Shown piece by piece: positions 442 to 17,705 of a stretch of 64,000 bases of DNA. Under the pieces are notes generated by a model. The model had not been told where the DNA came from, made no database searches, and saw only the letters and a program-made list of their open reading frames with translations. How positions within the stretch are numbered: position 1 is the stretch's first letter; each line of letters begins with the position of its first letter. Made by a program: the position numbers and the translations under genes. The stretch comes from Maribacter sp. (GTDB lineage: Bacteria; Bacteroidota; Bacteroidia; Flavobacteriales; Flavobacteriaceae), in assembly GCA_020629415.1 (NCBI GenBank), contig JAHDDL010000013.1, positions 1 to 64,000 on the forward strand. The letters run 5' to 3'.

Positions 442-1116
442 CTAAATCAAATTGTGTTTCTGTGATTTTTTAGAAAGATCAATAAGATTTTTTACATCCA
501 TCTTACGCATTAAATTAAAACGATGTGTTTCTATAGTACGTTTGCTGTTTTGAAGTTTCTCTGATATTTGTTGATTGGTTAAGCCAGAGAGTACCAACTC
601 TAGCACTTTTAATTCTTTATTGGTAAGGTCAAAGACATTATCACCTGACTTCTTTGGTGTTTCTTCTTTTTTTACAACCTCATTTTTACCGCCCAAAAGA
701 TTATTTACCAACACATTACTAATATCTCCGCTAAAATATTTACCACCTTCCCTAACGGTATGTATAGCTTTAATGAACTCTGATTTATCAGTATCTTTCA
801 ATAAATACCCATTGGCACCAGAGCTAATGGATTTCAAGATATACTCTTCAGAATCATGCATTGACAAGATTATAGTTTTCACCGAAGATTTACTTTGCGT
901 CAATTCAGCAACGGCATCAATACCGTTCATAACGGGCATTCTAATATCAATGATCAAAATATCGGGATTTACTTCCCCTACCAAATCAATGGCCTCTTTA
1001 CCGTTAGATGCTTCACCGATCACTTGTAAATCAGATTCTGATTCCAATAAAGAACGTATACCGTCCCTTACCAAAGCGTGATCATCTGCCAATACTATTC
1101 TTGTTATTTCGCTCAA
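442..1116 (-). CDS. NarL/FixJ-family response regulator, likely nitrate-region regulator
   Basis: This 224-aa response regulator has a receiver domain (about residues 5-120) with acidic pair D11/D12, phosphoacceptor D57 (in IIDIRMP) and a conserved Lys in YLLKDT. A LuxR/GerE-type helix-turn-helix follows (about 160-220; LTNKELKVLEL, SKRTIETHR). The start is TTG at 1116: no ATG precedes the receiver and this start gives the canonical N-terminus. A 16-bp dyad, TAAGTA-ATTA-TACGTA, sits only 5-20 bases upstream of the start. The same dyad occurs at the other nitrate-region promoters, so autoregulation is plausible. The obvious partner is the NarX/PilJ-like kinase at 17728-19578, at the opposite end of the cluster. 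Assignment to nitrate control is inferred from context; the family is clear. Confidence 0.85.
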   Translation of the reverse strand: MSEITRIVLADDHALVRDGIRSLLESESDLQVIGEASNGKEAIDLVGEVNPDILIIDIRMPVMNGIDAVAELTQSKSSVKTIILSMHDSEEYILKSISSGANGYLLKDTDKSEFIKAIHTVREGGKYFSGDISNVLVNNLLGGKNEVVKKEETPKKSGDNVFDLTNKELKVLELVLSGLTNQQISEKLQNSKRTIETHRFNLMRKMDVKNLIDLSKKSQKHNLI

Positions 1117-1120
1117 AATA

Positions 1121-1136
1121 TAAGTAATTATACGTA
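1121..1136 (-). promoter_or_regulatory. Candidate operator dyad upstream of the response regulator
   Basis: TAAGTA-ATTA-TACGTA is a 6-4-6 inverted repeat. It has the same half-sites and spacing as dyads upstream of nrtA, the globin operon, narK and the cobA/nirB divergent region. It lies directly in front of the TTG start of the NarL-type gene. Confidence 0.55.
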
Positions 1137-1167
1137 TGCAGCTAAATTACATATAATTTTAAAAAAA

Positions 1168-1203
1168 ATACGGTCTATACAAAAAGTGCTGTATAGACCG
1201 TAT
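1168..1203 (-). terminator. Rho-independent terminator of the nrt/porin operon
   Basis: A perfect 13-bp inverted repeat (ATACGGTCTATAC / GTATAGACCGTAT) with a 10-base loop lies 26 bases past the porin stop. Read on the minus strand it is followed by a run of Ts (1161-1168). It separates the transport operon from the response regulator gene. Confidence 0.85.
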
Positions 1204-1228
1204 AACCAAACTAATTTAAATACAAATA

Positions 1229-2509
1229 CTATTCTTTTTTAGTGTTCAAAAATTGAGGCTTTATGGTTAACTGTACCCATGCCCAATTTTGGCTACTGGC
1301 AGCAAGATCATCTGTAATTCCCTTAAGTTCATACATACCATCTGCAGCAAACATTTGAGAGTACCCGATTGCCAAACCGTAGCCTTTGAATTTTTTCGCA
1401 AATACCAAATCAATTTCAGTACCCAATGATTTCTCGCCACTTGGTAATTCTTGCTCACCACTAAAGTTCAACACCTTTACCAATAGGCTAGACTGCTTGC
1501 CTAAATCGAATTTTGCACTTGCGTGAATATCAAAAAGACCTACAGAATTGGCATGGTTACCTACGTAGAAATAATCCATGAATCCGTTGAACTTATGATT
1601 GGTGCCGTATAGTGGAAAAAACGCTTCGGTTTTGTCCGTAGTATCCGCTTTATTACCACTGATTACTTCTGTACCAATACCCAACGCTACTTTGTCACTT
1701 GCTTTATAACCCAATTCCAAACCTAATAAATAGGCACTAGATTTTACTTCGTTTTGTCTTTCTCCCGTCTGTAAAAACAAGTTGGCATTAGCATTGAACT
1801 TTCCTTGTTTTAAATTTAAATGCGTACCAATTGTTTGCAAATTGCTTACACCATCTGCAGCGTCTGTATCGTCAAAATTTTGAAAGCCATTGTTCAGGGC
1901 CAATAAACTTGCCGAAAAACCGTCCCATTGTTGTTTTGCATATACATATTGCATGGTCTTATAAGTAAAAAACCCTGCTGTATTATATGCCGTACCTACT
2001 GATTGAAACCCTGTTGGGTTGTCAAAATCTTGACTAAAGGCCAAACCTATATCCAAAATAAATTTATCTTTTTTGTACTTTAAAAGTCCCGCATCGTGGT
2101 TTCTTCCTTGTTGAGCCCAGTCTAACCCACCAAATATTCTTTGATCGTCATAAGATATCACTTGACGCCCCAATTTGGTAGACCAACCTTTTCCTAAATT
2201 AATATTTGCCCATGCTTCAAATACGGCAAAAGAATCGTTTTGATCATCTGGTAGAATTTGTCTGTTCTCACCCCAAACCATTACATCTTGTAGGCTTAGG
2301 TAAAACTGATACGCCTCAGATTCATACTTGGCATTTAAACGTGCACGTGTAGAAATGGCGAATCCGGCATCTGCCGCATCTGGTATTAAACTACCAAAGC
2401 CATGTCTGTATTCCGTTCTTGGCCTAAACTGCCCATCTAAAGTAAATTGTGCATGTATGGCATTCGCCGTTAGAAACAATAGGGTGATGATTAGATATTG
2501 CTTTTTCAT
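1229..2509 (-). CDS. Alginate-export-family-like outer-membrane porin in the nitrate transport operon
   Basis: This 426-aa protein has a cleavable signal (about 1-20, cleavage near HAQ). It continues as alternating aromatic/polar beta-strand segments to the C-terminus, as in 16-18-stranded porins of the alginate export (AlgE-like) family. Motifs such as RPRTEYRHGFG and LGRQVISYDDQRIFGGLDW are typical of flavobacterial members. It is the last gene of the nrtA-nrtB-ATPase-ATPase operon, 34 bases after the preceding gene and just before a strong terminator. Context suggests a channel that carries nitrate or nitrite across the outer membrane; substrate specificity is inference. No TonB-receptor plug is present. 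Confidence 0.75.
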   Translation of the reverse strand: MKKQYLIITLLFLTANAIHAQFTLDGQFRPRTEYRHGFGSLIPDAADAGFAISTRARLNAKYESEAYQFYLSLQDVMVWGENRQILPDDQNDSFAVFEAWANINLGKGWSTKLGRQVISYDDQRIFGGLDWAQQGRNHDAGLLKYKKDKFILDIGLAFSQDFDNPTGFQSVGTAYNTAGFFTYKTMQYVYAKQQWDGFSASLLALNNGFQNFDDTDAADGVSNLQTIGTHLNLKQGKFNANANLFLQTGERQNEVKSSAYLLGLELGYKASDKVALGIGTEVISGNKADTTDKTEAFFPLYGTNHKFNGFMDYFYVGNHANSVGLFDIHASAKFDLGKQSSLLVKVLNFSGEQELPSGEKSLGTEIDLVFAKKFKGYGLAIGYSQMFAADGMYELKGITDDLAASSQNWAWVQLTIKPQFLNTKKE

Positions 2510-2543
2510 AATCGTAATTTTTAAATATTGATTGAGTTATTTG

Positions 2544-3368
2544 TTAGTGTTCTAAAAAATCTATTAGGTGTTTTCTGTAGGTATAATAATCGTCGCTTTC
2601 CAAGACAGATTTGCGAGTTCGTGGTCGTTCAAAGTCAATGGAGAGTATATCCCCAATTTTTGCCCTAGGCCCACTGGTCATCATAATAACACGATCAGCT
2701 AAAAAAATGGCCTCATCCACATCATGGGTAATCATGACCGCCGTAATTTTCTCCTTGTTCCAAATTTCTATGAGAATATCTTGCAACTCACCCCTGGTCA
2801 ACGAGTCTAGCATTCCAAAAGGTTCATCTAACAACAATACTTTTGGTTTAATGGCAAAGGCTCTGGCAATACCTACACGTTGTTGCATGCCTTGAGATAG
2901 TTCTGATGCTTTTTTATGAAAGGCATTCTCAAGACCTACTTTGTGTAAATAATATTTGGCAATGTCTTCTCGCTGTCCTTTAGTGGCTTGAGGAAAAACC
3001 TGGTTGACCCCTAATAAAACATTCTGAAGTGCGGTCATCCAAGGCATTAAGCTTGGAGATTGAAAAATAACCCCCCTATCTGGACCCGGACCTTTTACCG
3101 GATTTCCCAAGACTGAAATATTACCGCCAGAAATAGGATTAAGACCTGCTATCATGGAAAGCATGGTTGTTTTACCACATCCTGAATGCCCAATAATGGT
3201 TACGAATTCTTCTTTTAAGATCTGTAAATTCAAATCTTCAAGAACCACATAATCTCCTTTTGGCGTAGGGTACACTTTTTTTAAGTCGGCCAAATCTAGC
3301 ATTACCTTGGATGGGTAGACAATGCCGTTCTCTGAATATACTTCGTTAGATTGTTCTATTGTATTCAT
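2544..3368 (-). CDS. Nitrate/taurine-type ABC transporter ATPase (second ATPase of the operon)
   Basis: This 274-aa ABC ATPase belongs to the nitrate/sulfonate/bicarbonate (NrtC/NrtD/SsuB) group. Visible motifs are Walker [10 protein letters not shown], a signature with the variant LSQGM (Gln for the usual Gly), Walker [11 protein letters not shown] and the switch ITHDVDEA. It would hydrolyse ATP on the cytoplasmic face to drive the NrtB permease. The gene lies 11 bases after the first ATPase gene. Cyanobacterial NrtC carries a C-terminal nitrate-binding regulatory domain, but this protein stops soon after the ATPase fold, so that regulatory domain is absent. The two ATPases probably form a heterodimer, as NrtC/NrtD do. 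Confidence 0.88.
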
Positions 3369-3379
3369 TTTCCAATTCT

Positions 3380-4219
3380 TTAGGCGACAAAACTTTTTGG
3401 TGTAAGCTCTGGCAATTTATATTCTACGTTAGATACCGTTTTTCTCTCTTCACCTATGTCCATTAGATATTCTATAATGGCATTTCTGGTTTTCTTGTAA
3501 ACAGGATTGTCATTCATGGCCGTTTTATCCCTTGGCCTTTCTATATCTATTTTAAACTCCGGACCCAAAGTGGCATTTGGTCCCGGCTTAAGAGGTATTA
3601 TTCTATCTGCCATGTAAATACCTTCATCAACATCATTGGTAATCAATAATGCCGTACGCTTGTCCTGGCTCCAAATATTCAAAATCTCATCTTGCAGATT
3701 ACCTCTGGTCAAAGCATCTAAAGCTCCTAAGGGTTCATCCATAATGATCATCTCAGGGTTCATGGCCAAGGCACGTGCAACCGCCACCCTTTGGCGCATT
3801 CCTCCAGAAAGTTCTTTGGGTCTTTTATTGATTGCGGGGCTAAGACTTACCATAGCCACATACTCTTTTACCCTTTTCATTAAATCTGCTTTGCTTTCTT
3901 TTGGAAAAGCTTCCTTTACCGCCATGTAAATATTTTGCCCAACAGTTAACCATGGCAATAGCGAATAGTTTTGAAAAATAACTCCACGTTCATGGCTGGT
4001 ATCGGTTACCGGTTTTCCTTTAAAAAGTACTTCGCCGCTTGTTGGCTGTAACAAGCCGTTGATCAAATTTACCAAGGTGGTCTTACCGCTACCCGTAAAC
4101 CCTACAATGGCAACAAATTCTCCTTCATCCATGGTGAGGTTAATGTTAGACAGTACTTCTGTACTTCCATCTCCTTCACCATAGGTTTTGTATATATTAT
4201 TTAGTTCTAAGTATGCCAT
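3380..4219 (-). CDS. Nitrate/taurine-type ABC transporter ATPase (first ATPase of the operon)
   Basis: This 279-aa ABC ATPase has Walker [10 protein letters not shown], a canonical LSGGM signature, Walker [12 protein letters not shown] and a switch region ITNDVDEG in which Asn replaces the usual His of ITHD. It is similar in size to its neighbour and likewise lacks the NrtA-like C-terminal domain of cyanobacterial NrtC. It starts 17 bases after nrtB. The switch His is lost here, while the partner ATPase keeps His but has a variant signature. That pattern is compatible with an asymmetric heterodimer having one catalytically weaker site; this is inference. Confidence 0.88.
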
Positions 4220-4236
4220 GCTCTTCTTTTTATAAA

Positions 4237-5337
4237 TTATGCCATCTCGTTTTTGTTGAAAGAAACCATGTTCTGTACGGTCAACATCAACCTATCCAAT
4301 AAAAACCCAATGATACCTATGACGAACATGGCCACAATGATTTTTGAATTGGAGTCGTTGGCACCATTCTGGAATTCCTCCCAAACGAAAAGACCTAAAC
4401 CTTGACTTTGTGCAAGCAATTCAATGGCGATCAAAACCATCCAAGCAACAGAAAGCGTAATTCTTAGACCTGTAAAAATTAAGGGTAACGATGATGGCAG
4501 TATTACTTTGAATACTTTTTGAAACGTGCCTAATTTCAATACCTTGGCTACATTGATATAATCTTTATCTACCGATGATACCCCCATTGCCGTATTGACC
4601 AAAGTTGCCCACATGGCACATAACCCAACACTGATAAAAGAAATTACAAAGGCATTATCTGAACTATCGCCTATGTACAATGTTTTTACGATCATAAAAA
4701 CCAATAAGTACCAAACCACGGGCGATACTGGCTTAAAAACTTGGATAAACCAGTTGAACGCACTACGTAAAGACGGACTAAGACCTATTATAATACCTAT
4801 GGGCACAGCAATCAACAATGCCAATAGAAAACCTGCAAATACCGTTTTAATACTAGTAAGTACTATATCTATAAATGACGCTCTACCCGTATAAACAATA
4901 GGATCTTTGCCCTGTGCAATTAATTTTTCATTGGTAGCCGACAATTTTTCCGCAAAGGCAGCCTTGTCCGCTTTTATAACTTGGTGATCTGCGACCAAAG
5001 ATTTTAAAGAAGCCCAAACCTGCGTAGGTGATGGTAGGGTGTTGGGCTGGCAACTACTGTCACCAGACTCTATACAAGCTCGCTCTGCCGCTGCAGCTTC
5101 TTCGCCCCGTTCTTGCAACGCTTTTTCTACCTTGTAATCTGCCTCTTTATTGTAGAGGGCTTTAGATCCCATATGCCATAAACCTATAAACAATAAGATG
5201 GATAGAAGTGTTATCCCAGCATTCTTCATAGATTTTATAATGCCATCCTTTTTTACACTTGGTGTAAGTTTTAAAAGTAACTGCTTAAAACTTACAGACA
5301 TGCTTTTTTCGTTTTTTAAGACCATTTCTTGCTCCAT
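4237..5337 (-). CDS. nrtB: Nitrate ABC transporter permease NrtB with a periplasmic insert
   Basis: This 366-aa inner-membrane permease belongs to the BPD_transp_1 family. The first membrane segment is about residues 39-57; the main transmembrane bundle begins near residue 156, and the EAA-type loop is visible around [21 protein letters not shown] (about 265-285). Between them lies an extra stretch of roughly 98 residues (58-155), charged and helical ([17 protein letters not shown]), with a close Cys pair (C88, C96) that could form a disulfide in the periplasm. Typical NrtB proteins are under 300 aa, so the insert is notable. The gene follows nrtA by 33 bases. Confidence 0.87.
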
Positions 5338-5370
5338 AATAATTTGTTTAAAGTCAATGAATAAATGTGC

Positions 5371-6759
5371 TTACTTTTTGTCTTTGTTACCTATAGAAAA
5401 ACTATTGATATATCCAATTGGATCTTTGGCATCATAGGTTGTACCGTCTATAAAATCTGCCGTAGGTGCTTTATATCCATCTGTTGCAGGTATATCCGTT
5501 GCAGGAATTTGACCTTCGGCAACCAAAAGATCCGCAGCCTTTTTCCAAATGTCAGGTCTGTAGATATCCTTAATGGTACTAGCGTACCAGTCTGTAGTTT
5601 TAGCTTCTGGAATTTGTCCCCATCTACGCATTTGAGTTAAGAACCAAATACCATCAGAATAGAATGGGTATGTTGCGTTGTACTTATAGAATACATTGAA
5701 ATCTGGCATTTCTCGCTTGTCTCCTTTTTCGAATTCAAAAGTACCGGTCATAGAATTTGCCAATACTTCTTTTGGCGCACCTACATATTGAGACATAGAA
5801 AGAATCTCAACCGCTTCTGCTCTATTAGAAGGCTCATCTAACCATTTACCCGCTCTGATCAATGCTTTTGTAACCGCAATTGCCGTATTAGGGTTCTGCT
5901 CTACAAACTGCTTGGTCATTACAAATACTTTCTCAGGATTATTCTTCCAAATATCATAGTTGGTAGTAACCGGAACACCTATTCCTTTAAATACCGCTTG
6001 TTGGTTCCAAGGCTCACCTACACAGTATCCGTAAATAGTACCGGACTCCAATGTAGCCGGCATTTGTGGCGGAGGTGTAACAGAAAGTAAAACCTCGGCA
6101 TCTATTTGCCCTTGTACATTATCTGCAGTATACATACCTGGGTGAATACCTGCTGCAGCCAACCAATAACGCAATTCGTAATTATGGGTAGATACCGGGA
6201 AAACCATTCCCATTTTAAAAGGTTTCCCTTCATTTTTATAAGAGGTAATTACAGGTTTTAATGCATCTGCCTTAATAGGATGAATTGGCTTACCATCTGA
6301 ATCTGCAGGTACATTTGGTTTCATTTTTGACCAAACATCATTAGATACCGTAATTCCATTTCCATTTAAATCCATAGAGAACGGAGTAACCAATTCTGCT
6401 TGTCTACCAAAACCTGCCCCTGCAGCAATTGGTTGGCCTGCCAACATGTGCGAACCGTCTAACTGACCGTCAATAACACGGTCCAATACATTTTTCCAGT
6501 TAGATTGTGCTTCTACCGAAACAAAAAGTCCTTCCTCTTCAAAAAAGCCCTTTTCTTTTGCAATGGCCAATGGTGCCATATCGGTCAACTTTATAAAACC
6601 AAAAGTTAACTGTGGCTTTTCAATATCCAGCATTTTAGTTTTTGAGGCTACAGCTTCTTCTGTATTTGTTGTTGCCTTTTTAGCGTCTTTTCCGCCACAT
6701 GACATAAGCACTGTCGCTACTGTTGCGAGTAATGTTGCTCGGTTAAAAATGGTTTTCAT
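5371..6759 (-). CDS. nrtA: Nitrate-binding lipoprotein NrtA (CmpA/NrtA family)
   Basis: This 462-aa substrate-binding protein has a lipoprotein signal with lipobox LMSC (Cys21) and a short linker, then the CmpA/NrtA fold ([21 protein letters not shown]..., about 52 onward). It is the periplasmic, membrane-anchored receptor that delivers nitrate (and usually nitrite) to NrtB. The length matches cyanobacterial NrtA. It is the first gene of an operon with the permease, two ATPases and a porin. Bicarbonate binding as in CmpA cannot be excluded from reading alone, but adjacency to narK, nirBD and a NarX-like sensor favours nitrate. Confidence 0.88.
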
Positions 6760-6782
6760 ATTAGTGTGTTTTAAAATTTAAC

Positions 6783-6973
6783 TACGTATTAATACTTATT
6801 TAAAGCAAATGTATACGTAATGACTAAATACCTATAATGTCCTAGCACATAAATAAGTATCTTTTTACGCCATATTGTAAACTGCCAAAACGCAGTTTTA
6901 TTTACGTAAACAACTAATAAACAGTACTTAAACAGAAATAAGTAATTCTTACGTAAAAAAGTATAATTACGTA
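6783..6973 (-). promoter_or_regulatory. nrtA control region with multiple TACGTA sites
   Basis: The 243-base gap upstream of nrtA holds five copies of the palindrome TACGTA (6783, 6814, 6903, 6950, 6968) and TAAGTA copies at 6854 and 6939. The first forms the 6-4-6 dyad TACGTA-TTAA-TACTTA at 6783-6798. On the minus strand TACATTTG (6813 to 6806) matches the Bacteroidota -7 consensus TAnnTTTG. No good -33 element is visible, which would fit an activator-dependent promoter. The site density is far above what base composition would give by chance (about one per 3 kb). Confidence 0.6.
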
Positions 6974-7002
6974 GCTACTAAAACTAGAAAGATGTATGTA
7001 AG

Positions 7003-7719
7003 CTATTTCTTTTGAAGTGTTTTAATCCATTCTGGCTCAGATAGGCCCAAATACTTTTTATCGTTGCTATAGGGATCTTCTCCACCTTCTAAATAGACTT
7101 GAATTCTATCTAAAGGAATGGTATCGTTCAATTTGGTAGGCACAACATACCTATGATTTCCATGAAAATCATGGCATTGAATACAAGTAAACCACTGTTC
7201 TTTCGCAATTAATTCTGAATGCGGAACATCTACGGGGTCATTTTCAACTTCTAAATCTTGATGACAATTCATACAGTAATTAACCGCCTTAAGACTTACA
7301 CGCTCACCATTATGTTCTGAATGGCAAGTAATACAGGTTGTAGCATCTATATTCTTAATTGCCTTTTTAAAGCGAGGTTCCGAAAATCTATATGTTGGAT
7401 GCCTGTCATTAGGGCGGTCATGACATTCTAAACAATTTTTAACGGTAACATCTTTTGAGCCAAAATCAACACTTTTTTCACGTATGCCAGCTGCATGTGA
7501 AATATTTGATTGTATTTGTTGCACTAAGTTTCCATTAGCATCTGCATGGCAAGCTACACATGAAATTTCTTCATGACCATTATTCATTGGACCCAATGAA
7601 ATATATTCTTCTGATGATTTCAATGAAAAAAAACCAATAATACCTGCGCCAATAAGAATACCTATTAGACCACCAATAAATTGTCTTTTTCGTAAAGGAG
7701 TTACCTTAAATATACCCAT
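7003..7719 (-). CDS. Membrane-anchored pentahaem cytochrome c
   Basis: This 238-aa protein has one N-terminal membrane segment (about 14-32) with basic residues in front, so the bulk should face the periplasm. Five CXXCH haem-c motifs are present: CVACH (54), CLECH (96), CITCH (129), CMNCH (149) and CIQCH (179). Additional His residues (for example H49, H75, H107, H167, H189) could act as distal ligands. It resembles NapC/NrfH or class III-type multihaem electron carriers, but the haem count and spacing do not match NrfH or NapC exactly. It is the last gene of a five-gene operon, 2 bases after the reductase gene. It probably accepts electrons from the di-haem membrane protein; the terminal acceptor is unknown. 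Confidence 0.82.
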   Translation of the reverse strand: MGIFKVTPLRKRQFIGGLIGILIGAGIIGFFSLKSSEEYISLGPMNNGHEEISCVACHADANGNLVQQIQSNISHAAGIREKSVDFGSKDVTVKNCLECHDRPNDRHPTYRFSEPRFKKAIKNIDATTCITCHSEHNGERVSLKAVNYCMNCHQDLEVENDPVDVPHSELIAKEQWFTCIQCHDFHGNHRYVVPTKLNDTIPLDRIQVYLEGGEDPYSNDKKYLGLSEPEWIKTLQKK

Positions 7720-7721
7720 AA

Positions 7722-8750
7722 TTATATTGAGATTACCACATTTTCACTTGTAGGATAGCTTACGCAGGTCAATATTTTTCCTGCATCTACATCTTTCTGC
7801 TCTAAAAAATGACCTTCGGTCATACTTATATCTCCAGAGATACAAGATGCTAAACAAGTTGAACACATTCCAGACCTACAGGAATAAGGCATCTCTATAT
7901 TATTTGCCATTGCCGCTTGCAAAATGGTAGTATTACCCTGCACACTAAGTTCATGACTTTTGCCTTTTAGTTGAATTTGTACTTTACTAAGTACTCCATT
8001 TTTTAACACTACCCTATCCGGTCTTTTAAATAACTCCTCTTTTATTTTTGTTGGTGATACTCCGTTTACATATAAAATGCTTTTTACAGCTTCCATAAAA
8101 CCGAAAGGACCACAAATCATATACTGACCTTTTCCAAAAGCCAAATCATATTTCTCTAAAACATCCATTACTATACCATCAGTAATTAAACCATGATGAT
8201 AATTATCCAATACCGGTATTTCTTTGGATATTAAAAATTCAATCTTGAACCTATCCTCATATTCTTTACGAAGTTTTTCCAATTTCTCTTTAAATATTAT
8301 TGAATTTAAAAATCGATTGGCATAAATAAGTATAATTTTAGATTTAGGTTCTTTATGTAAAAGCGAACTAATTATTGAAAATACCGGAGTTATTCCGCTT
8401 CCTCCAGCAAATAACACGTAGTTTTTTTGTTGTCCTTTTTCTGGTTTTACGAAAAAACTTCCGCCTGGCTTATCTACTGGTATCTTATCGCCAACCTTCA
8501 AAGAATCATGTATATAATTAGAAACTAATCCGTTTTTTACACGTTTAACCGTGATTTTCGGCTCATCATCAGTAAAAGGATTACTACTAAAAGAATAAGC
8601 TCTTTTATGCACTATATCATTTAACTTGAAATGCAAGGTTACAAACTGCCCTGGGTTATATTTTAGCTTATTGAACAAGCCTCCTTTTTTAAAACTTACA
8701 CTTACAGTATCCGCTGTTTCTTGTTGTATATTTTTTACTGTTAGTTTCAT
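7722..8750 (-). CDS. NAD(P)H:FAD:2Fe-2S oxidoreductase (PaaE/Hcr-like)
   Basis: This 342-aa cytosolic flavoprotein has an FAD-binding beta-barrel with RAYSFSS (50-56), an NAD(P)H-binding domain starting at GGSGITP (116-122) with CGPFGFM (213-219), and a C-terminal plant-type ferredoxin domain. The 2Fe-2S ligands are C291-x4-C296-x2-C299 and C329. This architecture is shared with phenylacetyl-CoA epoxidase reductase PaaE and the HCP reductase Hcr. It should move electrons from NAD(P)H via FAD to the 2Fe-2S centre. Neighbours suggest that the acceptors are the di-haem membrane protein (8759-9238), the globin, or both. No signal or membrane segment is seen. Confidence 0.88.
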   Translation of the reverse strand: MKLTVKNIQQETADTVSVSFKKGGLFNKLKYNPGQFVTLHFKLNDIVHKRAYSFSSNPFTDDEPKITVKRVKNGLVSNYIHDSLKVGDKIPVDKPGGSFFVKPEKGQQKNYVLFAGGSGITPVFSIISSLLHKEPKSKIILIYANRFLNSIIFKEKLEKLRKEYEDRFKIEFLISKEIPVLDNYHHGLITDGIVMDVLEKYDLAFGKGQYMICGPFGFMEAVKSILYVNGVSPTKIKEELFKRPDRVVLKNGVLSKVQIQLKGKSHELSVQGNTTILQAAMANNIEMPYSCRSGMCSTCLASCISGDISMTEGHFLEQKDVDAGKILTCVSYPTSENVVISI

Positions 8751-8758
8751 CTTTATTT

Positions 8759-9238
8759 CTATTTATAATAAAAAACCATGGCAACATGAAAAAACATTAA
8801 AATTGTTATGACTATTGAAAAGGCAACGTGTGCCATCATCCATCCTTTAAACAATACATCACTATTATTTTTTATAACATCTAAATTTACATACCCTAAA
8901 AGAGCATTTGCAAAAAACAGATATGATAATAGTGCCAAGTACCCATAGCCCAGACCAATGCTGTGAGCATAGAAAAATATAGGACTCAATGCTCCTGCCC
9001 ATTTATGCATTGCCGTCATTTTAATTGAATGCTTTCTTAACTTTTTAACCATCCTAAACAACGTTAATACCCATTGAAAGGTTATTAAAAGTGCCATAAA
9101 TAGACCAGACCATCTTTTATACATTTCTTGCTGCTGCTGTATTTTTAACCATGTCCATTCTAGTTTTAAAAAAAATTGTAAAAAGAACAAGGATAAAAGC
9201 AGTAGACCTAATATTGTAGTCAAGTTTTTGTTTTTCAA
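8759..9238 (-). CDS. Small membrane protein with paired His, putative di-haem b (ferric reductase/NOX-like core)
   Basis: This 159-aa integral membrane protein has about four to five hydrophobic segments (roughly 5-23, 43-63, 80-97, 99-118, 133-157). Two His pairs are each exactly 14 apart: H78/H92 and H137/H151. This is the bis-His spacing by which two helices of ferric reductase/NADPH oxidase transmembrane domains hold two stacked b haems across the membrane. H70 lies outside the pairs. I do not recognise a named family. The gene sits 8 bases before the FAD/2Fe-2S reductase gene, just where a NOX-type protein would fuse its dehydrogenase domain. The haem assignment is inference from spacing and neighbours. 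Confidence 0.65.
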   Translation of the reverse strand: MKNKNLTTILGLLLLSLFFLQFFLKLEWTWLKIQQQQEMYKRWSGLFMALLITFQWVLTLFRMVKKLRKHSIKMTAMHKWAGALSPIFFYAHSIGLGYGYLALLSYLFFANALLGYVNLDVIKNNSDVLFKGWMMAHVAFSIVITILMFFHVAMVFYYK

Positions 9239-9254
9239 AAATTGAGTTTTCTAA

Positions 9255-10085
9255 TTAATTACTGGCTATTAAAGTTTTCATGGTATCATAAGAAGAAAGT
9301 TTTCTAACACTATCTAGAAAAACTTCTGGCGATGGAAGGTAGTTTCCTTCTGCCGGCCACTTATCTCCAATTATTGGCTTTTCTGAAGATTTAAAAGCTG
9401 CTATTTCATCTAGGTATTCTACATAAATATCTACCGTACCTTGGGCATAGGCATTTAAAACCTCTACCGCACCAGAATACGTTAATGAATCTTTTGGATA
9501 TTGCCATGTAGTGGCGCCCATTACATCACCTAATTTCCAATCTGTTTTTGCTGTTTGAGGATGGTCATTGTGGCAGGTAACACATGCTTGCGCACTTGCC
9601 AAATCTGCAAACATTGCCGTATATAGTTCTTGAGATTCATCATAAAAATATTTTGGTTCTTGTGTAACCTTTATATCTTCAAATAGAGACTCTTGCTCTC
9701 CTTCGAATTTATTGGCATTATTAATTGGAAAATCTGATCCTAAGTATAAACCCAAAGGAACTGGACCTTTACGAATACTAGTTGCCACTCCCCGTAAAAA
9801 CAATGCTGGCAAGGGACCTGCTTCTACATCATCTTTACGCCAATCTTCATCAAATTTCATTCCTTGTAGCTTACCTTTCCCGACAATAGCTTTAGTGTAT
9901 AATGTTCTGGTAACATCATTTTCTTTGGATACCATTTCTAAAACTTCATTAACGGAGAAGACATTTTTTTCTGTAGTACTACCGCTACCTTTTTCTTCAG
10001 GAACTCCACCACATGAGTTTAAAACGATGAGGCTTACAATAAGAATTATTAACACAAGAAAGGGAGAGTTTTTTAGCTTTTTCAT
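9255..10085 (-). CDS. Tll0287-like (DUF3365) haem-c lipoprotein
   Basis: This 276-aa exported lipoprotein has a hydrophobic signal with lipobox LNSC (Cys25) followed by a Gly/Ser/Thr-rich linker. The core (about 45-200) resembles the Tll0287-like/DUF3365 domain, with one haem-c motif CVTCH (168-172) in ACVTCHNDHP and a downstream VMGATTW. In other bacteria this domain binds haem c and often serves as the sensor part of signalling proteins. Here it stands alone as a lipid-anchored periplasmic protein with a C-terminal extension of about 75 residues. It lies 25 bases after the globin gene and before the membrane and reductase genes, suggesting a redox or gas-ligand role in the same pathway. Confidence 0.75.
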   Translation of the reverse strand: MKKLKNSPFLVLIILIVSLIVLNSCGGVPEEKGSGSTTEKNVFSVNEVLEMVSKENDVTRTLYTKAIVGKGKLQGMKFDEDWRKDDVEAGPLPALFLRGVATSIRKGPVPLGLYLGSDFPINNANKFEGEQESLFEDIKVTQEPKYFYDESQELYTAMFADLASAQACVTCHNDHPQTAKTDWKLGDVMGATTWQYPKDSLTYSGAVEVLNAYAQGTVDIYVEYLDEIAAFKSSEKPIIGDKWPAEGNYLPSPEVFLDSVRKLSSYDTMKTLIASN

Positions 10086-10110
10086 AGTCTAATGTTTTAA
10101 GGTTATTATG

Positions 10111-10524
10111 TTAGTAGGATGCTTTTATCATTACTGAAGACATAGTGCCATAAACTTTTGTCCAAGCATCTTTTACATCTGGTGTAAATTCATCGCCCAA
10201 GCCAGTTTCCAACGTACTTAATAAAGCCGAACCTACCGTATTGTAATGCGATGGCTCAACTTTATAATTTACATGACGTTTTCCTAAATTTTCCAATACG
10301 GGCACTAGCATTTCCAAATTATTCAAACCCGCAACCGCACTTCCTAGCATGGTCATTAATTTATTCCCCTGCAGCGCCATAGCTTCTTCACTCTTTGGAA
10401 AAATACTCTTTAAAGTAGGGTCTAATTTAAATAGCTTGTCATAAAATATTTTAGCTGCCGTATCTGCTATTGGCTTAACTTTTTCAAATGAATTTTGTAC
10501 TAGTGTTATAGTGTTCTGTTCCAT
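10111..10524 (-). CDS. Single-domain globin (flavohaemoglobin-type / Vgb-like)
   Basis: This 137-aa globin matches the haem domain of flavohaemoglobins. Proximal His is H84 (LGKRHVNYKVEPSHY), B10 Tyr is Y28 (KIFYDKLF) and E7 Gln is Q52 (ALQGNKLM); Tyr B10 plus Gln E7 is the usual active site for NO dioxygenation. No FAD/NAD domain is fused; a separate reductase is encoded three genes downstream in the same operon. Because nitrite reduction can release NO, a protective NO dioxygenase role in this nitrate cluster is a reasonable inference. Oxygen delivery, as proposed for Vitreoscilla globin, is the alternative. It is the first gene of the operon. Confidence 0.88.
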   Translation of the reverse strand: MEQNTITLVQNSFEKVKPIADTAAKIFYDKLFKLDPTLKSIFPKSEEAMALQGNKLMTMLGSAVAGLNNLEMLVPVLENLGKRHVNYKVEPSHYNTVGSALLSTLETGLGDEFTPDVKDAWTKVYGTMSSVMIKASY

Positions 10525-10562
10525 AATAGTGTTTTGGATTTATAATTCTTTAACTGAACAAA

Positions 10563-10612
10563 TAAGTACTTATACTTAATTGTTTAAACAAATATATAAC
10601 CTTGACTACGTA
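10563..10612 (-). promoter_or_regulatory. Globin operon promoter with dyad and TACGTA half-site
   Basis: TAAGTA-CTTA-TACTTA (10563-10578) is the 6-4-6 dyad shared by the nitrate-region promoters. On the minus strand TATATTTG (10596 to 10589) is a full match to the -7 consensus. A TACGTA half-site (10607-10612) lies 10 bases upstream of that -7 box, the same distance as at narK. Further half-sites (TACTTA 10716, TAAGTA 10729, TACGTA 10744) stand closer to the fnr-like gene. Confidence 0.55.
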
Positions 10613-10758
10613 CTTATTATGGAATAACATAGTAGAAAAAAGACTTTTATAACATATAAAAATCTGTGAAATTGCAGGTTTTTTACAGAAACATCAATAA
10701 ACTACAGTACTGACGTACTTATTATATATAAGTAGATATACGGTACGTACTTAAACTA

Positions 10759-10774
10759 GGATAGTTAACTATCC
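10759..10774. repeat. Perfect 16-bp palindrome across the fnr-like stop codon
   Basis: GGATAGTTAACTATCC is self-complementary and contains the last codons and TAA stop of the Crp/Fnr gene. As RNA it could form a 6-bp stem with a UUAA loop, but no T-tract follows on the minus strand, so a standard terminator is doubtful. Confidence 0.5.
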
Positions 10775-11523
10775 AAATAGAAATTGTGCTCTGAGATTTC
10801 TTTTTTGAGCAATGCTATATCAGCAATACCAATTCTTTTGCCCTTGGTAATCAATAAGCCCTCTTTTTTGAGAATAGAGAACATTCTTATAACCTGCTCC
10901 TCGGTAGTACCCGCATAATCTGCATATTCTCTTCTGCTTAATAAAAGTGAGGAATACCCATTTACCTGACCAAATTTGCGGTTAATATATAATAGTGTGT
11001 CTATAACCCGTTCACGAACCGTCATTTGAGATAAGGATTTTACCCTAATTTCACTACGATTAAGTTCATTGGCATAAAACAGCATAAAATCATACGTAAG
11101 ACCAGGTGTTTCCCTTAATGTTTCTTGAAGTAACTCTTTTGAAAAATAACATAAGGTGCAATCTACCAAAGCAATGGCGCTAATTGGATAAGTCTCTTCT
11201 GTGCCAAAACCTCTATGCCCAATGATTTCACCTGGAGATGCAAATCGAACAATTTGTTCTTTACCATGTAGTCCGGTCCTTAAAACTTTAACCTTACCAC
11301 TTAAAAGAAAGAAGAGTCCGGTTACCGAAGCTCCTTCCATAATAAATTGCTGTCCTTTTTTACACTTTATTTCTTTTCTTGCCTTTACTAGTTTGCCAAT
11401 ACTAGAAGTGTGAATGTTCTTTTGAATAAGACAATTTTCATTGGAGCATAATCCACAGGCACTATCTAGCAGCTCCGATGAATCGGAAATACGCGTTGAT
11501 ATATGATTTGCACCTGCTCGCAT
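10765..11523 (-). CDS. Crp/Fnr-family regulator with candidate Fe-S cysteines
   Basis: This 252-aa protein has a cyclic-nucleotide-binding-type beta-roll (about 45-140), a dimer helix (about 145-170) and a winged helix (about 175-250; SRREYADYAGTTEEQVIRMF). N-terminal cysteines C23, C26 and C31, plus C122 and C125 in the core, mirror the ligand layout of oxygen/NO-sensing Fnr (three N-terminal Cys and one central), suggesting an Fe-S sensor. In the recognition helix the Glu and Arg used by Fnr/Crp are kept (E-E-Q-V-I-R), but Ile stands where Fnr has Ser and Crp has Gly, so the operator should differ from TTGAT-N4-ATCAA. The gene begins 10 bases after narK and is probably co-transcribed with it. 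Confidence 0.85.
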   Translation of the reverse strand: MRAGANHISTRISDSSELLDSACGLCSNENCLIQKNIHTSSIGKLVKARKEIKCKKGQQFIMEGASVTGLFFLLSGKVKVLRTGLHGKEQIVRFASPGEIIGHRGFGTEETYPISAIALVDCTLCYFSKELLQETLRETPGLTYDFMLFYANELNRSEIRVKSLSQMTVRERVIDTLLYINRKFGQVNGYSSLLLSRREYADYAGTTEEQVIRMFSILKKEGLLITKGKRIGIADIALLKKEISEHNFYLDS

Positions 11524-11533
11524 AGATATGAGT

Positions 11534-12961
11534 TTAGATACTACTTGGCGATAAATTGATAACGGGCTTATCTACCTTTTGTAATTCTTCCTTAACTAGT
11601 TTTTCATCTTCGGCAGAGAATTTAATGGCCAGCGTAACAAGTGCCGTGACTATTACAAAGCCACCTATAAGTAAATACCCACTTGAAACAGCCCCCGATG
11701 CCGCAGCAGATTGAGCGGCCTTCATTGCTTCTTCACCTAAATTAGCGTTAGCGGCCAAGGCATTGGTTTCTGCCAAAGCGGATTTTGATTTTAATAATAA
11801 TGCCGCCAAAAAAGCACCTACATTACCACCTGCTCCAACAATACCAGAGATAGAACCAATAGCCTTTTTATTTATAAAAGGCACTACCGAAAACGTTGCC
11901 CCTTCTGCCATTTGTACCGTTAAACTAAAGGCAATTAAAAATATAATTCCCATGGCAAAGCTTGTTGCCATTGAAAAAACGGAGAGCATAACTCCTTCTA
12001 AAGCCAATATGACCGTTAAGAAAAGTACCCTACCGCGCAAGCCTTTTAATCTACCGAAACGGTCTCCGAAAAAGCCGCCCAAGGTTCGGGCAAATATATT
12101 CATCAGGGCAAAAGAAAGTACCAAGTTTCCCGCAGTGGACCTTGTTAACCCAAAGGTGTTTTGCAAATAATCATCCATGGTTCCGTAAACTGTAAGCTCC
12201 ATTCCAAAAGATGCTGCGTATACAATGAAAAGAATCCATACCCTATAATCCTTTAAGACACTTAAAAACGATTCCTCATCTTTTTTTAGCTTCGGCATTT
12301 TACCTTCCTCCTTTAATTCCTTAAAATTACCTTCTGGTGTGTCTTGGGTAAAGAAATAATAAACAAGCCCCATTAGCATGGCAATGACACCTGCAATAAT
12401 CATTGAATATCTCCATGCAATTTCATCGGCAACCCCAAAGCTTACCACTGCAGCAGCAATTAATGGCATACCTAAACGGTTGGCACCACCACCCAAATTA
12501 CCCCATCCGGCAGAAGTTGCATTTGCGGTACCAACAATATTGGGTGCAAACATGATAGATGTATGAAACTGGGTTATTACGAATGAAGCACCTATAAAAC
12601 CAATAAACAATCTGCAAATTAAAAATTGAAGCGGCGTTTGCACAAAACCGATTAGAATTACAGGAATGGCACCTAGTATCAGTAAATAGGTATAACATAA
12701 CCTAGGACCATATTTATCACAAAGCTTTCCTATCAATAGTCTAGCGAAAACGGTTCCTGTAACCGCAAATATAATTGAGTTCCATTTTTGATCGGGAGTC
12801 AGCCCTAAATCTTTAACCACATCTGGCATGAAGGGTACAATACCAAACCATGCAAAAAAACAAATGAAAAATGCAATTGAGGTTATCCAAAAAGTACGAA
12901 TGGGTAAACTCTTTATATTCGTTAAATTTAAGGTGGTAGACTTTTTAGATTGATTTTTCAT
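11534..12961 (-). CDS. narK: NarK-family nitrate/nitrite MFS transporter
   Basis: This 12-helix major facilitator belongs to the nitrate/nitrite porter family. Family motifs are GWGNLGGGANRLG (starting near residue 152) and GAGGNVGAF in the second half. The substrate arginines expected in TM2 and TM8 appear in VFARLLIGKLCDKYGPR and NIFARTLGGFFGDRFGR. I chose the ATG at 12961 (475 aa). A longer frame from 13003 exists, but a consensus -7 element (12992-12999) and the operator dyad sit inside or next to that extension. It imports nitrate or exchanges nitrate and nitrite, complementing the ABC system. A loop with an Ala-rich stretch (ALAANANLGEEAMKAAQSAA) near the C-terminus is unusual. Confidence 0.92.
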   Translation of the reverse strand: MKNQSKKSTTLNLTNIKSLPIRTFWITSIAFFICFFAWFGIVPFMPDVVKDLGLTPDQKWNSIIFAVTGTVFARLLIGKLCDKYGPRLCYTYLLILGAIPVILIGFVQTPLQFLICRLFIGFIGASFVITQFHTSIMFAPNIVGTANATSAGWGNLGGGANRLGMPLIAAAVVSFGVADEIAWRYSMIIAGVIAMLMGLVYYFFTQDTPEGNFKELKEEGKMPKLKKDEESFLSVLKDYRVWILFIVYAASFGMELTVYGTMDDYLQNTFGLTRSTAGNLVLSFALMNIFARTLGGFFGDRFGRLKGLRGRVLFLTVILALEGVMLSVFSMATSFAMGIIFLIAFSLTVQMAEGATFSVVPFINKKAIGSISGIVGAGGNVGAFLAALLLKSKSALAETNALAANANLGEEAMKAAQSAAASGAVSSGYLLIGGFVIVTALVTLAIKFSAEDEKLVKEELQKVDKPVINLSPSSI

Positions 12962-12991
12962 ATTATAGCAGATCACATTATTGAGATCATA

Positions 12992-13055
12992 CAAACCTAC
13001 CATAAATAATACGTAATTATACGTAGTTTTTAATATAATTTTAAATTACTACGTA
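12992..13055 (-). promoter_or_regulatory. narK promoter with TACGTA dyad
   Basis: TAGGTTTG on the minus strand (12999 to 12992) matches the Bacteroidota -7 box. Ten bases upstream is the dyad TACGTA-ATTA-TACGTA (13010-13025), and another TACGTA lies at 13050-13055. The layout supports the start of narK at 12961 and places the dyad over the -33 region. Confidence 0.6.
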
Positions 13056-13207
13056 TTTTTGAGGAATTAAGGAAATGAGCCTGTTACTATTATTCGATTC
13101 TAAATTAAATGCTCGAAAAAATTGAAATAGTGTAATTTCTGCCACTAAAATGCCTTGCCGTTTACCTTTTATTAGACTGCTATAAAGGTGAAATCTCCTT
13201 TATTAGA

Positions 13208-13999
13208 TTAAATAGCATGGTGTAGAATACGCTGTACTTCTTCTTCAAAAAATGATGGATGATCAGCTACCACGTCTCCAATGACAATAATGCCCGGTTT
13301 GGTAATATCAACCTCCCCTATATTATTATTCAAGGCATCTAAAGTAGCTACATAACATTTTTCATGTTGGGTAGTTCCGTTTTGAATTATGGCAATAGGC
13401 GTCATTGAACCCCTATATTTACTAACTTCTTTCACTATTTCATTAAGCTTTCTAATGCCCATTAAAACTACCATAGTGGTAGAAGATTTTGCTGCATATT
13501 GCAAATCTTGCGAAAACGTACCATCTCTTTTTGTTGCCGTCATCACCCAAAAACTACTACTTATTCCTCTTTTGGTCATCGGTATACCTTGACTAGATGG
13601 TACAGCTATAGCACTGGAAATTCCAGGAACTACACTAACAGGTATGCCAAATGACTCTACATATTCTATTTCCTCATTTGCCCTGCCAAAAACAAAAGGA
13701 TCACCTCCTTTTAAACGTACCACATGACCGTATTCAAAGGCATATTTTACTATTAATTCATTGATTTTATCTTGGGAATGCGAATGTTGACCACATCTTT
13801 TACCCGTAAATATCTTAGGTATATCAGTACGTATTTCAGATAATAGATCATCACTGATCAATGCATCGTACAAAATAATATCGGCTTGGTTCAATACCTT
13901 CAAACCCCTTATAGTTATTAAATCTTTAGCTCCTGGGCCCGCACCTACTAAACTTACTTTTGCCGTTTTTTCTAATTCCATCTTCATAGTATTTAGCAT
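13208..13999 (-). CDS. cobA: Uroporphyrinogen-III C-methyltransferase
   Basis: This 263-aa SAM-dependent methylase converts uroporphyrinogen III to precorrin-2, the first step to sirohaem, the cofactor of NirB. Family motifs are VGAGPGAKDLITIRG (17-31), VVRLKGGDPFVFGR, and the SAM-site stretches VVPGISSA and MVVLMGI. The length is typical of stand-alone SUMT/CobA. The start may be ATG 13999, 13987 or 13981; the core begins soon after, so the difference is small. It faces nirB divergently and shares its control region. The second sirohaem enzyme is encoded at 19565-20149. Confidence 0.93.
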   Translation of the reverse strand: MLNTMKMELEKTAKVSLVGAGPGAKDLITIRGLKVLNQADIILYDALISDDLLSEIRTDIPKIFTGKRCGQHSHSQDKINELIVKYAFEYGHVVRLKGGDPFVFGRANEEIEYVESFGIPVSVVPGISSAIAVPSSQGIPMTKRGISSSFWVMTATKRDGTFSQDLQYAAKSSTTMVVLMGIRKLNEIVKEVSKYRGSMTPIAIIQNGTTQHEKCYVATLDALNNNIGEVDITKPGIIVIGDVVADHPSFFEEEVQRILHHAI

Positions 14000-14026
14000 T
14001 ATTATTTATCGATTCTTCAACAAGAA

Positions 14027-14081
14027 TACGTAATTATTTTCATAAAATCAGTATTTATATACGTATTTATACGTAATATTG
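14027..14081. promoter_or_regulatory. Divergent cobA/nirB control region
   Basis: The 99-base gap between the divergent genes holds TACGTA at 14027-14032 and the dyad TACGTA-TTTA-TACGTA at 14060-14075, with the same 4-base spacing as at narK. TAATATTG (14074-14081, plus) and TATTCTTG (minus, 14028 to 14021) are near matches to the -7 consensus with one mismatch each. Confidence 0.55.
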
Positions 14082-16712: not shown

Positions 16713-17093
16713 ATGTCTTTATCTGTTTTGAATACGTATGCAAGTGTAGCTGCCAGTGATGTTAAGGTTTGGTTCAAGGCCGCGCCAATTTCTAAATTTC
16801 CTAAGAATGGCGGAGCTTGTATAAAATATAAGGACAAACAGATCGCCGTATTCAATTTTACAAGAGAAGGTACTTGGTACGCCTGCCAAAACCTTTGTCC
16901 GCATAAAATGGAAATGGTACTTTCCAGAGGTATGATCGGTGAAGAAAATATGGAAGCTAAAGTGGCCTGCCCACTTCACAAGAATACATTTTCGTTAAAA
17001 ACCGGGGAGAATTTAAACGGGACTTTAGATCCCATTGCTACATATCCTGTAAAAATAGAGTCGGACTTTGTGTATGTTGGCTTTTCTGAATAG
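16713..17093 (+). CDS. nirD: Nitrite reductase small subunit NirD (Rieske type)
   Basis: This 126-aa protein is the small subunit that assembles with NirB. It has the Rieske-like fold and, unlike many NirD proteins, keeps all four Rieske ligands: C62-P-H64 and C86-P-L-H89. It could therefore bind a true [2Fe-2S] cluster and take part in electron transfer. It starts 91 bases after nirB. That gap contains only a weak 5-bp stem (TGGTT/AACCA) and no clear promoter. Confidence 0.93.
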   Translation: MSLSVLNTYASVAASDVKVWFKAAPISKFPKNGGACIKYKDKQIAVFNFTREGTWYACQNLCPHKMEMVLSRGMIGEENMEAKVACPLHKNTFSLKTGENLNGTLDPIATYPVKIESDFVYVGFSE

Positions 17094-17114: not shown

Positions 17115-17705
17115 ATGGCGACCACAGATAAATTACTACTAGCATTTCAACAATTTGACGAAGCCAATAAGCAAGATCCAAATACCGAAGTTTTTGAAGG
17201 TACTACCTACCCAAAAGAAGTATTGTACGGTATTCGCATGACAGAAAGACTAAATGCCTTTGACCCCAATGCATCTGAAGCATTACGCCTAACCGCAAGA
17301 TGTCAACATATCTGTAGATGGGAAATTCCTAGAGAATCTTACGAGATGAACCGTGAAGGGTATTTGAGATGGAGACAAGAATTAAAAAAGTTCCATGCCA
17401 CAAAAGCCGCTTCTATTCTAGAAGATATTGGCTATGACAAGGAAACCATTGACAATGTCAAATTTCTTTTACAGAAAAAACAACTAAAGAAAAACGAAGA
17501 AACCCAAACTTTGGAAGATGTTATTTGTTTGGTCTTTTTAGAGTTCTATTTTGAACCCTTTGCCCATAAACACCCAGAGGACAAAACTATTGATATTCTT
17601 CAAAAAACATGGAGAAAAATGTCAATCAAGGGTCAAGAAGCAGCTTTAAAACTTCCCCTTTCTAAATTCTCTTTAGACTTAATTACCAAGGCCCTAAACG
17701 CCTAG
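17115..17705 (+). CDS. DUF4202-family protein of the nitrite reductase operon
   Basis: This 196-aa soluble protein is recognisable as DUF4202 from its opening (FQQFDEANKQDP) and the conserved ARCQHICRWEIPRESY and YLRWRQELKKFHA blocks. It is all-helical in appearance, with conserved His, Cys, Trp and Glu residues suggestive of a metal or small-ligand site; no catalytic signature is known to me. It is embedded 21 bases after nirD and 22 bases before the sensor kinase, which argues for a role tied to nitrite reductase maturation, stability or regulation. The function is unknown. Confidence 0.85.
   Translation: MATTDKLLLAFQQFDEANKQDPNTEVFEGTTYPKEVLYGIRMTERLNAFDPNASEALRLTARCQHICRWEIPRESYEMNREGYLRWRQELKKFHATKAASILEDIGYDKETIDNVKFLLQKKQLKKNEETQTLEDVICLVFLEFYFEPFAHKHPEDKTIDILQKTWRKMSIKGQEAALKLPLSKFSLDLITKALNA

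Follow-up and report, generated by a model that had tools for sequence, protein, structure and literature searches.

A conserved 16-bp dyad before nitrate assimilation genes of Flavobacteriaceae as the probable operator of a NarL-type regulator

The nitrate region and its dyads

The window analysed here, a stretch of 64,000 nucleotides from a Maribacter-like genome (3.9 Mb, 81 contigs), carries a cluster of nitrate and nitrite genes in which one 16-bp palindrome, the dyad TAMGTA-N4-TACKTA, recurs. From position 442 the cluster comprises a NarL-type regulator gene, a porin-like gene, four nrt-type transporter genes, a cytochrome c, a flavin reductase, an open reading frame (ORF) of 159 amino acids (aa), a Tll0287-like gene, a globin, a Crp/Fnr-type gene, narK and a tetrapyrrole methylase (cobA). 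After cobA, on the other strand, follow nirB, nirD, a DUF4202 gene, a sensor kinase and a sirohaem-synthesis gene. The regulator protein matches that of M. huludaoensis at 99%, and the nearest named genomes by regulator are Maribacter.

Five exact dyads lie in the window (Table 1), where a mean of 0.02 is expected and none of 100 shuffles reached five; they are the five places, with no further one, that the original prediction had named. The surplus of TACGTA half-sites it described is also present (37 in the window against 12 expected), five of the 37 falling inside 6783–6973. Its statement that the dyad stands at all five transcription starts of the nitrate region has to be narrowed: the five dyad places stand, a sixth nitrate promoter lies on another contig and the starts are predicted. 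The dyad at 14060–14075, which it had placed between cobA and nirB, fits nirB; a lone TACGTA sits on the separate -7-like box of cobA.

Across the genome the dyad is found at seven places and the reversed pattern, which served as the control throughout, at two; the dyad is thus not common genome-wide; had it been, the original prediction would by its own terms have been refuted. Nitrate genes lie downstream of six of the seven. The sixth dyad (C46:47–62) precedes a nitrate-reductase-like molybdopterin oxidoreductase gene whose ORF is cut; a TTG of this gene follows after 11 bp and an ATG after 50 bp. The product scores under the curated cut-offs, highest for formate dehydrogenase alpha, and the counterparts of this gene in relatives sit in nitrate clusters. 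The seventh (C44:12169) has a GC-containing spacer, CAGG, and precedes a 60-aa ORF, which we take from its sequence to be ccoS-like, near cbb3-oxidase-type genes; it may be a chance match or a respiratory target. Near-dyads with up to two mismatches occur at 66 places against 70 for the control, which is background. A double near-site lies at C55:54684 and 54724.

Table 1. Dyads, predicted -7 boxes and genes of the nitrate region, in window coordinates.
Feature	Position	Strand	Remarks
Dyad TAAGTAATTATACGTA	1121–1136		4 bp before TTG start of NarL-type regulator gene; in 16/41 genomes
Dyad TACGTATTAATACTTA	6783–6798		before nrtA, just downstream of nrtA -7-like box; in 16/19 genomes
Dyad TAAGTACTTATACTTA	10563–10578		before globin operon, downstream of its -7-like box; in 3/5 genomes
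Dyad TACGTAATTATACGTA	13010–13025		before narK; in 22/27 genomes
Dyad TACGTATTTATACGTA	14060–14075		before nirB; last TA is TA of -7-like box; in 36/36 and 25/25 further genomes
Single TACGTA half-site	14027–14032		on cobA -7-like box (14021–14028, minus strand)
-7-like box TAATATTG of nirB	14074–14081	+	overlaps dyad
-7 box TAGGTTTG of narK	12992–12999	-	inside annotated ORF
-7 box TACATTTG of nrtA	6806–6813	-	abutted by half-site TACGTA 6814–6819
-7 box TATATTTG of globin operon	10589–10596	-	
NarL-type response regulator	442–1116	-	receiver and GerE helix-turn-helix; proposed dyad binder
Sensor kinase	17728–19578	+	PilJ, PAS, HisKA_3, HATPase; P-box INIAGRQR; proposed partner
nrtA-type binding protein	5371–6759	-	first gene of nrtABCD (2544–6759)
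Globin	10111–10524	-	first gene of operon reaching 7003
narK-type transporter	11534–13003	-	310.5 bits, cut-off 311.7
nirB, nitrite reductase large subunit	14099–16621	+	nirD next at 16713–17093
Crp/Fnr-type regulator	10765–11523	-	rejected as main binder
DUF4202 gene	17115–17705	+	between nirD and kinase

Conservation and specificity of the dyad

In a set of 299 Flavobacteriaceae genomes, the NarL-type regulator (search at E <= 1e-50) and NirB (E <= 1e-200) were found in an identical set of 67. Stretches of up to 38 kb around the regulator were taken from 40 of the 67 (our own genome not counted). Five of the 40 needed a second stretch to reach nirB, and for 25 more genomes the region upstream of nirB was taken. 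Of the 66 regulator-bearing genomes that could be tested, 65 have an exact dyad in the 300 bp upstream of nirB (36/36 including our own, 25/25 further ones and 4/5 with a second stretch). The sole exception, G228, has TAGGTATTACTACGTA, with one mismatch; G271 was left out because its contig begins inside nirB.

The dyad is kept before other orthologous genes as well; a lack of such conservation was what the original prediction had named as a possible refutation. Besides the upstream regions of nrtA, narK, the globin and the regulator gene (Table 1), dyads stand before 26 of 37 nasA genes and, more rarely, before the Crp/Fnr gene (3/13) and the porin (1/24); a cobA count of 18/20 represents the nirB dyads viewed from the opposite side. 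In the 11 nasA genes that have no dyad, the nearest mapped upstream gene is narK or nrtD. No dyad was found before nrtB, nrtC and nrtD (0/19 each), nirD (0/36), the DUF4202 gene (0/38) or the kinase gene (0/36). A class-wide search of 345 genomes gave 11 matches to the regulator, two of them in members of other families, G562 and G502 (G+C content 44–49%), whose corresponding clusters carry dyads; in G502 the 140 bp examined immediately before nirB contain none. Five more distant class-level regulators (39–47% identity) have no exact dyad in the fetched stretches, in which a motif of their own was not sought.

The spacing is specific: with a spacer of 4 the pattern occurs in 141 of 423 upstream regions (the shared cobA/nirB gap enters twice), and with any other spacer from 0 to 15 in at most 12. 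TACGTA is about 30-fold denser in target promoters (7.7/kb; 255 in 33,000 bases) than before operon-internal genes (0.23/kb; 9 in 39,200). In those target promoters the densities of seven other 6-bp palindromes are 0.06–0.48/kb. Genome-wide, the dyad averages 6.2 matches against 2.9 for the control in 28 regulator-bearing genomes, and 1.8 against 2.2 in 18 of the 232 genomes without the regulator. The spacing of extra half-sites peaks at 12, 21–24, 33 and 42 bp; as the promoters are related to one another this phasing is suggestive only, and we attribute the 33-bp peak largely to the cobA half-site. Among 128 dyads the commonest form is TAMGTAT-NN-ATACKTA, with T at position 7 in 91 and A at position 10 in 90; position 3 of the first halves is A in 60 and C in 68, and position 4 is G by definition of the pattern. 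Taken from the sequences, these patterns strongly support a regulator site common to the nitrate genes. In G082 an identical dyad, TACGTAACGTTACGTA, stands at C1:185601, C2:75661 and C5:58360, and is perhaps a repeat element.

The protein that binds the dyad

The original prediction had left the dyad to either local regulator. The NarL-type part of that proposal stands, since this regulator tracks NirB through the same 67 of 299 genomes; the Crp/Fnr-type protein as maintainer of the dyad is not supported. With a counterpart set at 50% identity or more, the Crp/Fnr-type protein is present in 23 of 40 genomes that carry the regulator, while the remaining 17 all keep the dyad before nirB. One of the 17, G082, is an 89%-complete draft. 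Its gene lies inside the cluster, often beside dyads, the 6-4-6 layout would suit a Crp/Fnr dimer and N4-spaced palindromes are known for the family, as described for HcpR sites in the accessible part of PMC1274295; but the dyad does not track the gene, and weaker relatives (27–36% identity) also occur in genomes that have neither regulator nor nirB. The Crp/Fnr-type protein was rejected as the main binder, a role that we regard as unlikely; it may be a second binder.

Several features point instead to the NarL-type regulator. Its best match in the PDB is NarL (1a04, E 1.7e-34), and it scores under the curated cut-offs (NarL 147.1 of 250 bits, NarP 137.5 of 343). The commonest form of the dyad fits the NarL 7-2-7 layout, as had been predicted. 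The recognition helix has the form RTxExHR[FY] in 45 dyad-associated regulators, whose stretch carries dyads or, in the case of G180 and G228, whose genome carries them at another place. Five more distant regulators, which group together in the tree and have no exact dyad close by, have RTxDxHR[YRAS]. Residue 197 covaries with the half-site: where it is Thr (20 genomes), 121 of 162 half-sites are TACGTA, and where it is Val or Ala (23 genomes), 42 of 146 are. A rank test over these 43 genomes with dyads in the stretch gives P ~8e-8 with kinship ignored. As we read the alignment, regulator residues 196, 197 and 200 correspond to NarL 188, 189 and 192, which we take to be base contacts. We consider it highly probable that the NarL-type regulator binds the dyad to control nitrate assimilation.

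Promoter register

Predicted -7 boxes were called with TAnnTTTG, which we take to be the Bacteroidota-type consensus. At nirB the dyad runs into the -7 box and shares its final TA with it; the box is exact in 25 of 36 genomes, and 35 of 36 fit with one change allowed; the register is kept in 21 of the 25 further genomes (one change in TTTG allowed). Other promoters, scored with exact boxes, are arranged differently. At narK the two elements are fused in 9 of 22, and the dyad is 10 bp upstream of the box in 5 of 22; at nrtA 10 of 16 genomes have the box on the upstream side of the dyad and 3 of 16 have the two fused; at the regulator gene the dyad is 7 bp upstream of the box in 6 of 16. Our own genome has the fused arrangement at nirB, the dyad 10 bp upstream at narK, and dyads downstream of the box at nrtA and the globin operon. 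The original prediction had a TACGTA beginning 10 bases upstream of the -7 box; 10 bases lie between the two, and the start-to-start distance is 16.

The fixed register at nirB, kept in 35 of 36 genomes, could mean that a special sigma factor recognises a class of promoters to which the dyad belongs. This is disfavoured because the register varies, with narK, nrtA, nasA and the regulator gene showing other ones, and because the fusion of a half-site (TACKTA) to a -7 box shows no genome-wide enrichment, with 28 matches over both strands against 39 of the reversed control; we judge such an element very improbable.

We give equally little credence to a leader RNA that folds into a hairpin and is recognised by an antiterminator, the arrangement of NasR or NasT systems. 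RNA-binding proteins do control nitrate assimilation elsewhere (NasS-NasT, according to the accessible part of PMC3795266), and A/T and C/G end pairs are somewhat over-represented in the dyads (79/128, Fisher P 0.013). Symmetric DNA sites would also explain the excess of matching ends, however, and the third stem pair would be broken in 49 of 128 dyads. The nirB dyad, moreover, ends at the -7 box and would not be transcribed from it.

The boxes also bear on the start of narK. The predicted -7 box lies inside the annotated ORF, between the annotated start (13003) and the next in-frame ATG (12961). Of the 25 aligned genomes other than our own and its nearest relative, G286, 20 give NarK alignments that start no earlier than residue 14. 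The annotated start is therefore probably 42 bp too far upstream, the true one being 12961.

The sensor kinase and its P-box

The P-box of the kinase fits the published nitrate-binding motif (G-x-x-R) of NarX/NarQ-type kinases, and Pfam finds neither HAMP nor GAF in the protein. A Bacteroidetes class of nitrate-sensing kinases (class i) is described in the accessible part of PMC8199190 as having PAS and lacking HAMP and GAF.

A P-box is present in 39 of 45 dyad-associated kinases; the six that have no usable one are those of G002, G237, G180, G228, G082 and G030. The first five are short, at 446–477 aa compared with 616, and in G030 the motif is degenerate. The kinase of G002, the only short one run against Pfam, has PAS, HisKA_3 and HATPase and no PilJ. 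Read by eye, the regulator tree looks like about three losses: one in a four-genome group (G002, G237, G180, G228), one in G082, which stands beside the P-box-bearing G113, and one in G030; the automatic count is one, and compares labelled rows only. Because the dyads stay in genomes with such kinases, the signal in that lineage cannot be nitrate alone.

Proposed mechanism and sign of control

We propose that the NarL-type regulator and the NarX-like kinase form a nitrate-responsive two-component system serving nitrate and nitrite assimilation in Flavobacteriaceae, with nrt, narK, nas, nirBD, the globin operon and, in part, the regulator gene as targets. Nitrate as the signal, binding to the dyad and the dimer are what we infer from sequence. 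Two regulator subunits would sit on the 7-2-7 inverted repeat TAMGTAT-NN-ATACKTA, whose heptamer differs from that of E. coli, and further subunits on nearby TACGTA half-sites. As long as nitrate is absent or unwanted, the bound regulator would block RNA polymerase; the kinase would lift this block in response to nitrate.

Repression appears somewhat likelier than activation, since the core promoter is where most dyads are found: at nirB the dyad overlaps the -7 box, and at nrtA and the globin operon it follows closely downstream. Scatter over the core promoter is the usual picture for repressor operators.

In the converse arrangement, which we hold to be possible and do not favour, the regulator phosphorylated by the kinase on nitrate would help RNA polymerase at a good -7 box that has no recognisable -33 element. 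A TTG 21–25 bp upstream of the -7 box is found in only 1 of 38 dyad-fused promoters, but control boxes have few too (14 of 132) and likewise lack a clear -33 TTG signal. Additional half-sites are located further upstream, the usual logic is that nitrate induces assimilation, and in one clade the glutamine synthetase dyads occupy an activator-like place, 46–47 bp upstream of the -7 box. Against activation stand the nrtA dyad, which in 10 of 16 genomes comes after the -7 box, and a register that differs between genes. E. coli NarL provides both precedents in the accessible part of PMC4549865, where a 7-2-7 site at -40 to -49 serves activation of napF and one at -4/+6 repression of frdA.

Some observations weigh against the assignment of the dyad to a nitrate-responsive NarL-type regulator. 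Dyads and regulator stay in the six genomes whose kinases have no usable P-box, and repression by such a system would need a sign opposite to NarX-NarL activation. The dyad before the regulator's own gene is the least conserved of the five in the window. The covariation of helix and operator is mainly one deep split, with G082 the clearest further case, and G017 and G398 have Val at residue 197 yet mostly TACGTA. Genome-wide counts are uneven: among regulator-bearing genomes, G286, G108 and G129 have fewer dyads than control matches and G113 has equal numbers, while G005, G013 and G009, which lack the regulator, have 7, 6 and 5 dyads.

Possible rewiring at glutamine synthetase

Glutamine synthetase genes were sought in 21 genomes and found in 19. 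In the four-genome group a dyad stands before glnA (at the distance given above), and neither ACCCC nor GGGGT occurs upstream. The other 15 genomes, our own (C38) among them (13 with the regulator, 2 without), have no dyad there; all have at least one ACCCC or GGGGT, as a palindrome in 7. The ACCCC..GGGGT element is a candidate site of a second nitrogen regulator. G180 and G228 have further dyads in the citrate synthase/ilvD gap, next to a porin and ahead of a thioesterase. The four genomes are one lineage and therefore count as one event, with no statistical association.

A bolder reading, which we offer only tentatively and regard as rather doubtful, joins an inverted logic, in which a repressor on the -7 region is lifted by nitrate, to a change of role in Flavicella and two related genera. 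There the kinase would have lost its nitrate-binding domain, and the operator would have been captured by glutamine synthetase (preceded in other genomes by ACCCC/GGGGT-type elements) and, in two members, by the citrate synthase/ilvD gap, making the system a general nitrogen/carbon regulator. Kinases that have no sensor while the operator stays would represent a two-component circuit being rewired.

Relation to known systems

The heptamer of E. coli NarL is TACYYMT; here it is TAMGTAT. The pair resembles E. coli NarX-NarL and NarQ-NarP in its receiver-GerE regulator and in a kinase with nitrate P-box and HisKA_3, and differs in that the regulator falls below the NCBIfam NarL cut-off, the targets are assimilatory and the kinase has PAS and lacks HAMP or GAF. 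The sites share with those of E. coli NarL the form of a 16-bp inverted repeat with two heptamers 2 bp apart, as in the palindrome TACCCCTAAAGGGGTA given in the accessible part of PMC4549865. With the class i kinases of PMC8199190 our kinase shares P-box, PAS, HisKA_3 and the lack of HAMP; the accessible text of that account gives neither operator nor target genes.

NasS-NasT, NasR and NnaR perform the same physiological task, the control of nitrate assimilation; as far as the accessible sources describe them, they are RNA-binding antiterminators or an orphan regulator, in contrast to the NarX/NarL-like pair and DNA dyad found here. The HcpR sites of the Crp/Fnr family (accessible part of PMC1274295) are likewise palindromes with an N4 spacer, for example GTAACnnnnGTTAC, but their half-site is another one and the local Crp/Fnr gene does not track the dyad.

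No account of this operator or of nitrate-assimilation control in Flavobacteriaceae, the switch that decides whether marine flavobacteria use nitrate, came up among the papers listed in searches of open-licence literature. With the dyad come an operator, a regulator, a sensor class and a list of targets for marine flavobacterial nitrate use, all readable from sequence, and it gives the open question on the role of nitrate-sensing kinases, published in the accessible part of PMC8199190, a direct test in Bacteroidota.

Neighbouring genes

The DUF4202 gene lies near the regulator in 38 of 41 fetched genomes; its name is not mentioned in the open-licence literature searched. The block of globin, Tll0287-like gene, 159-aa ORF, flavin reductase and multihaem cytochrome c (7003–10524, minus strand) is also kept in G152, G002, G237, G177 and G017. 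Between the porin and the regulator gene, at about 1169–1203, an inverted repeat followed by a T-run on the minus strand was noticed by eye, and looks like the terminator of the porin operon.

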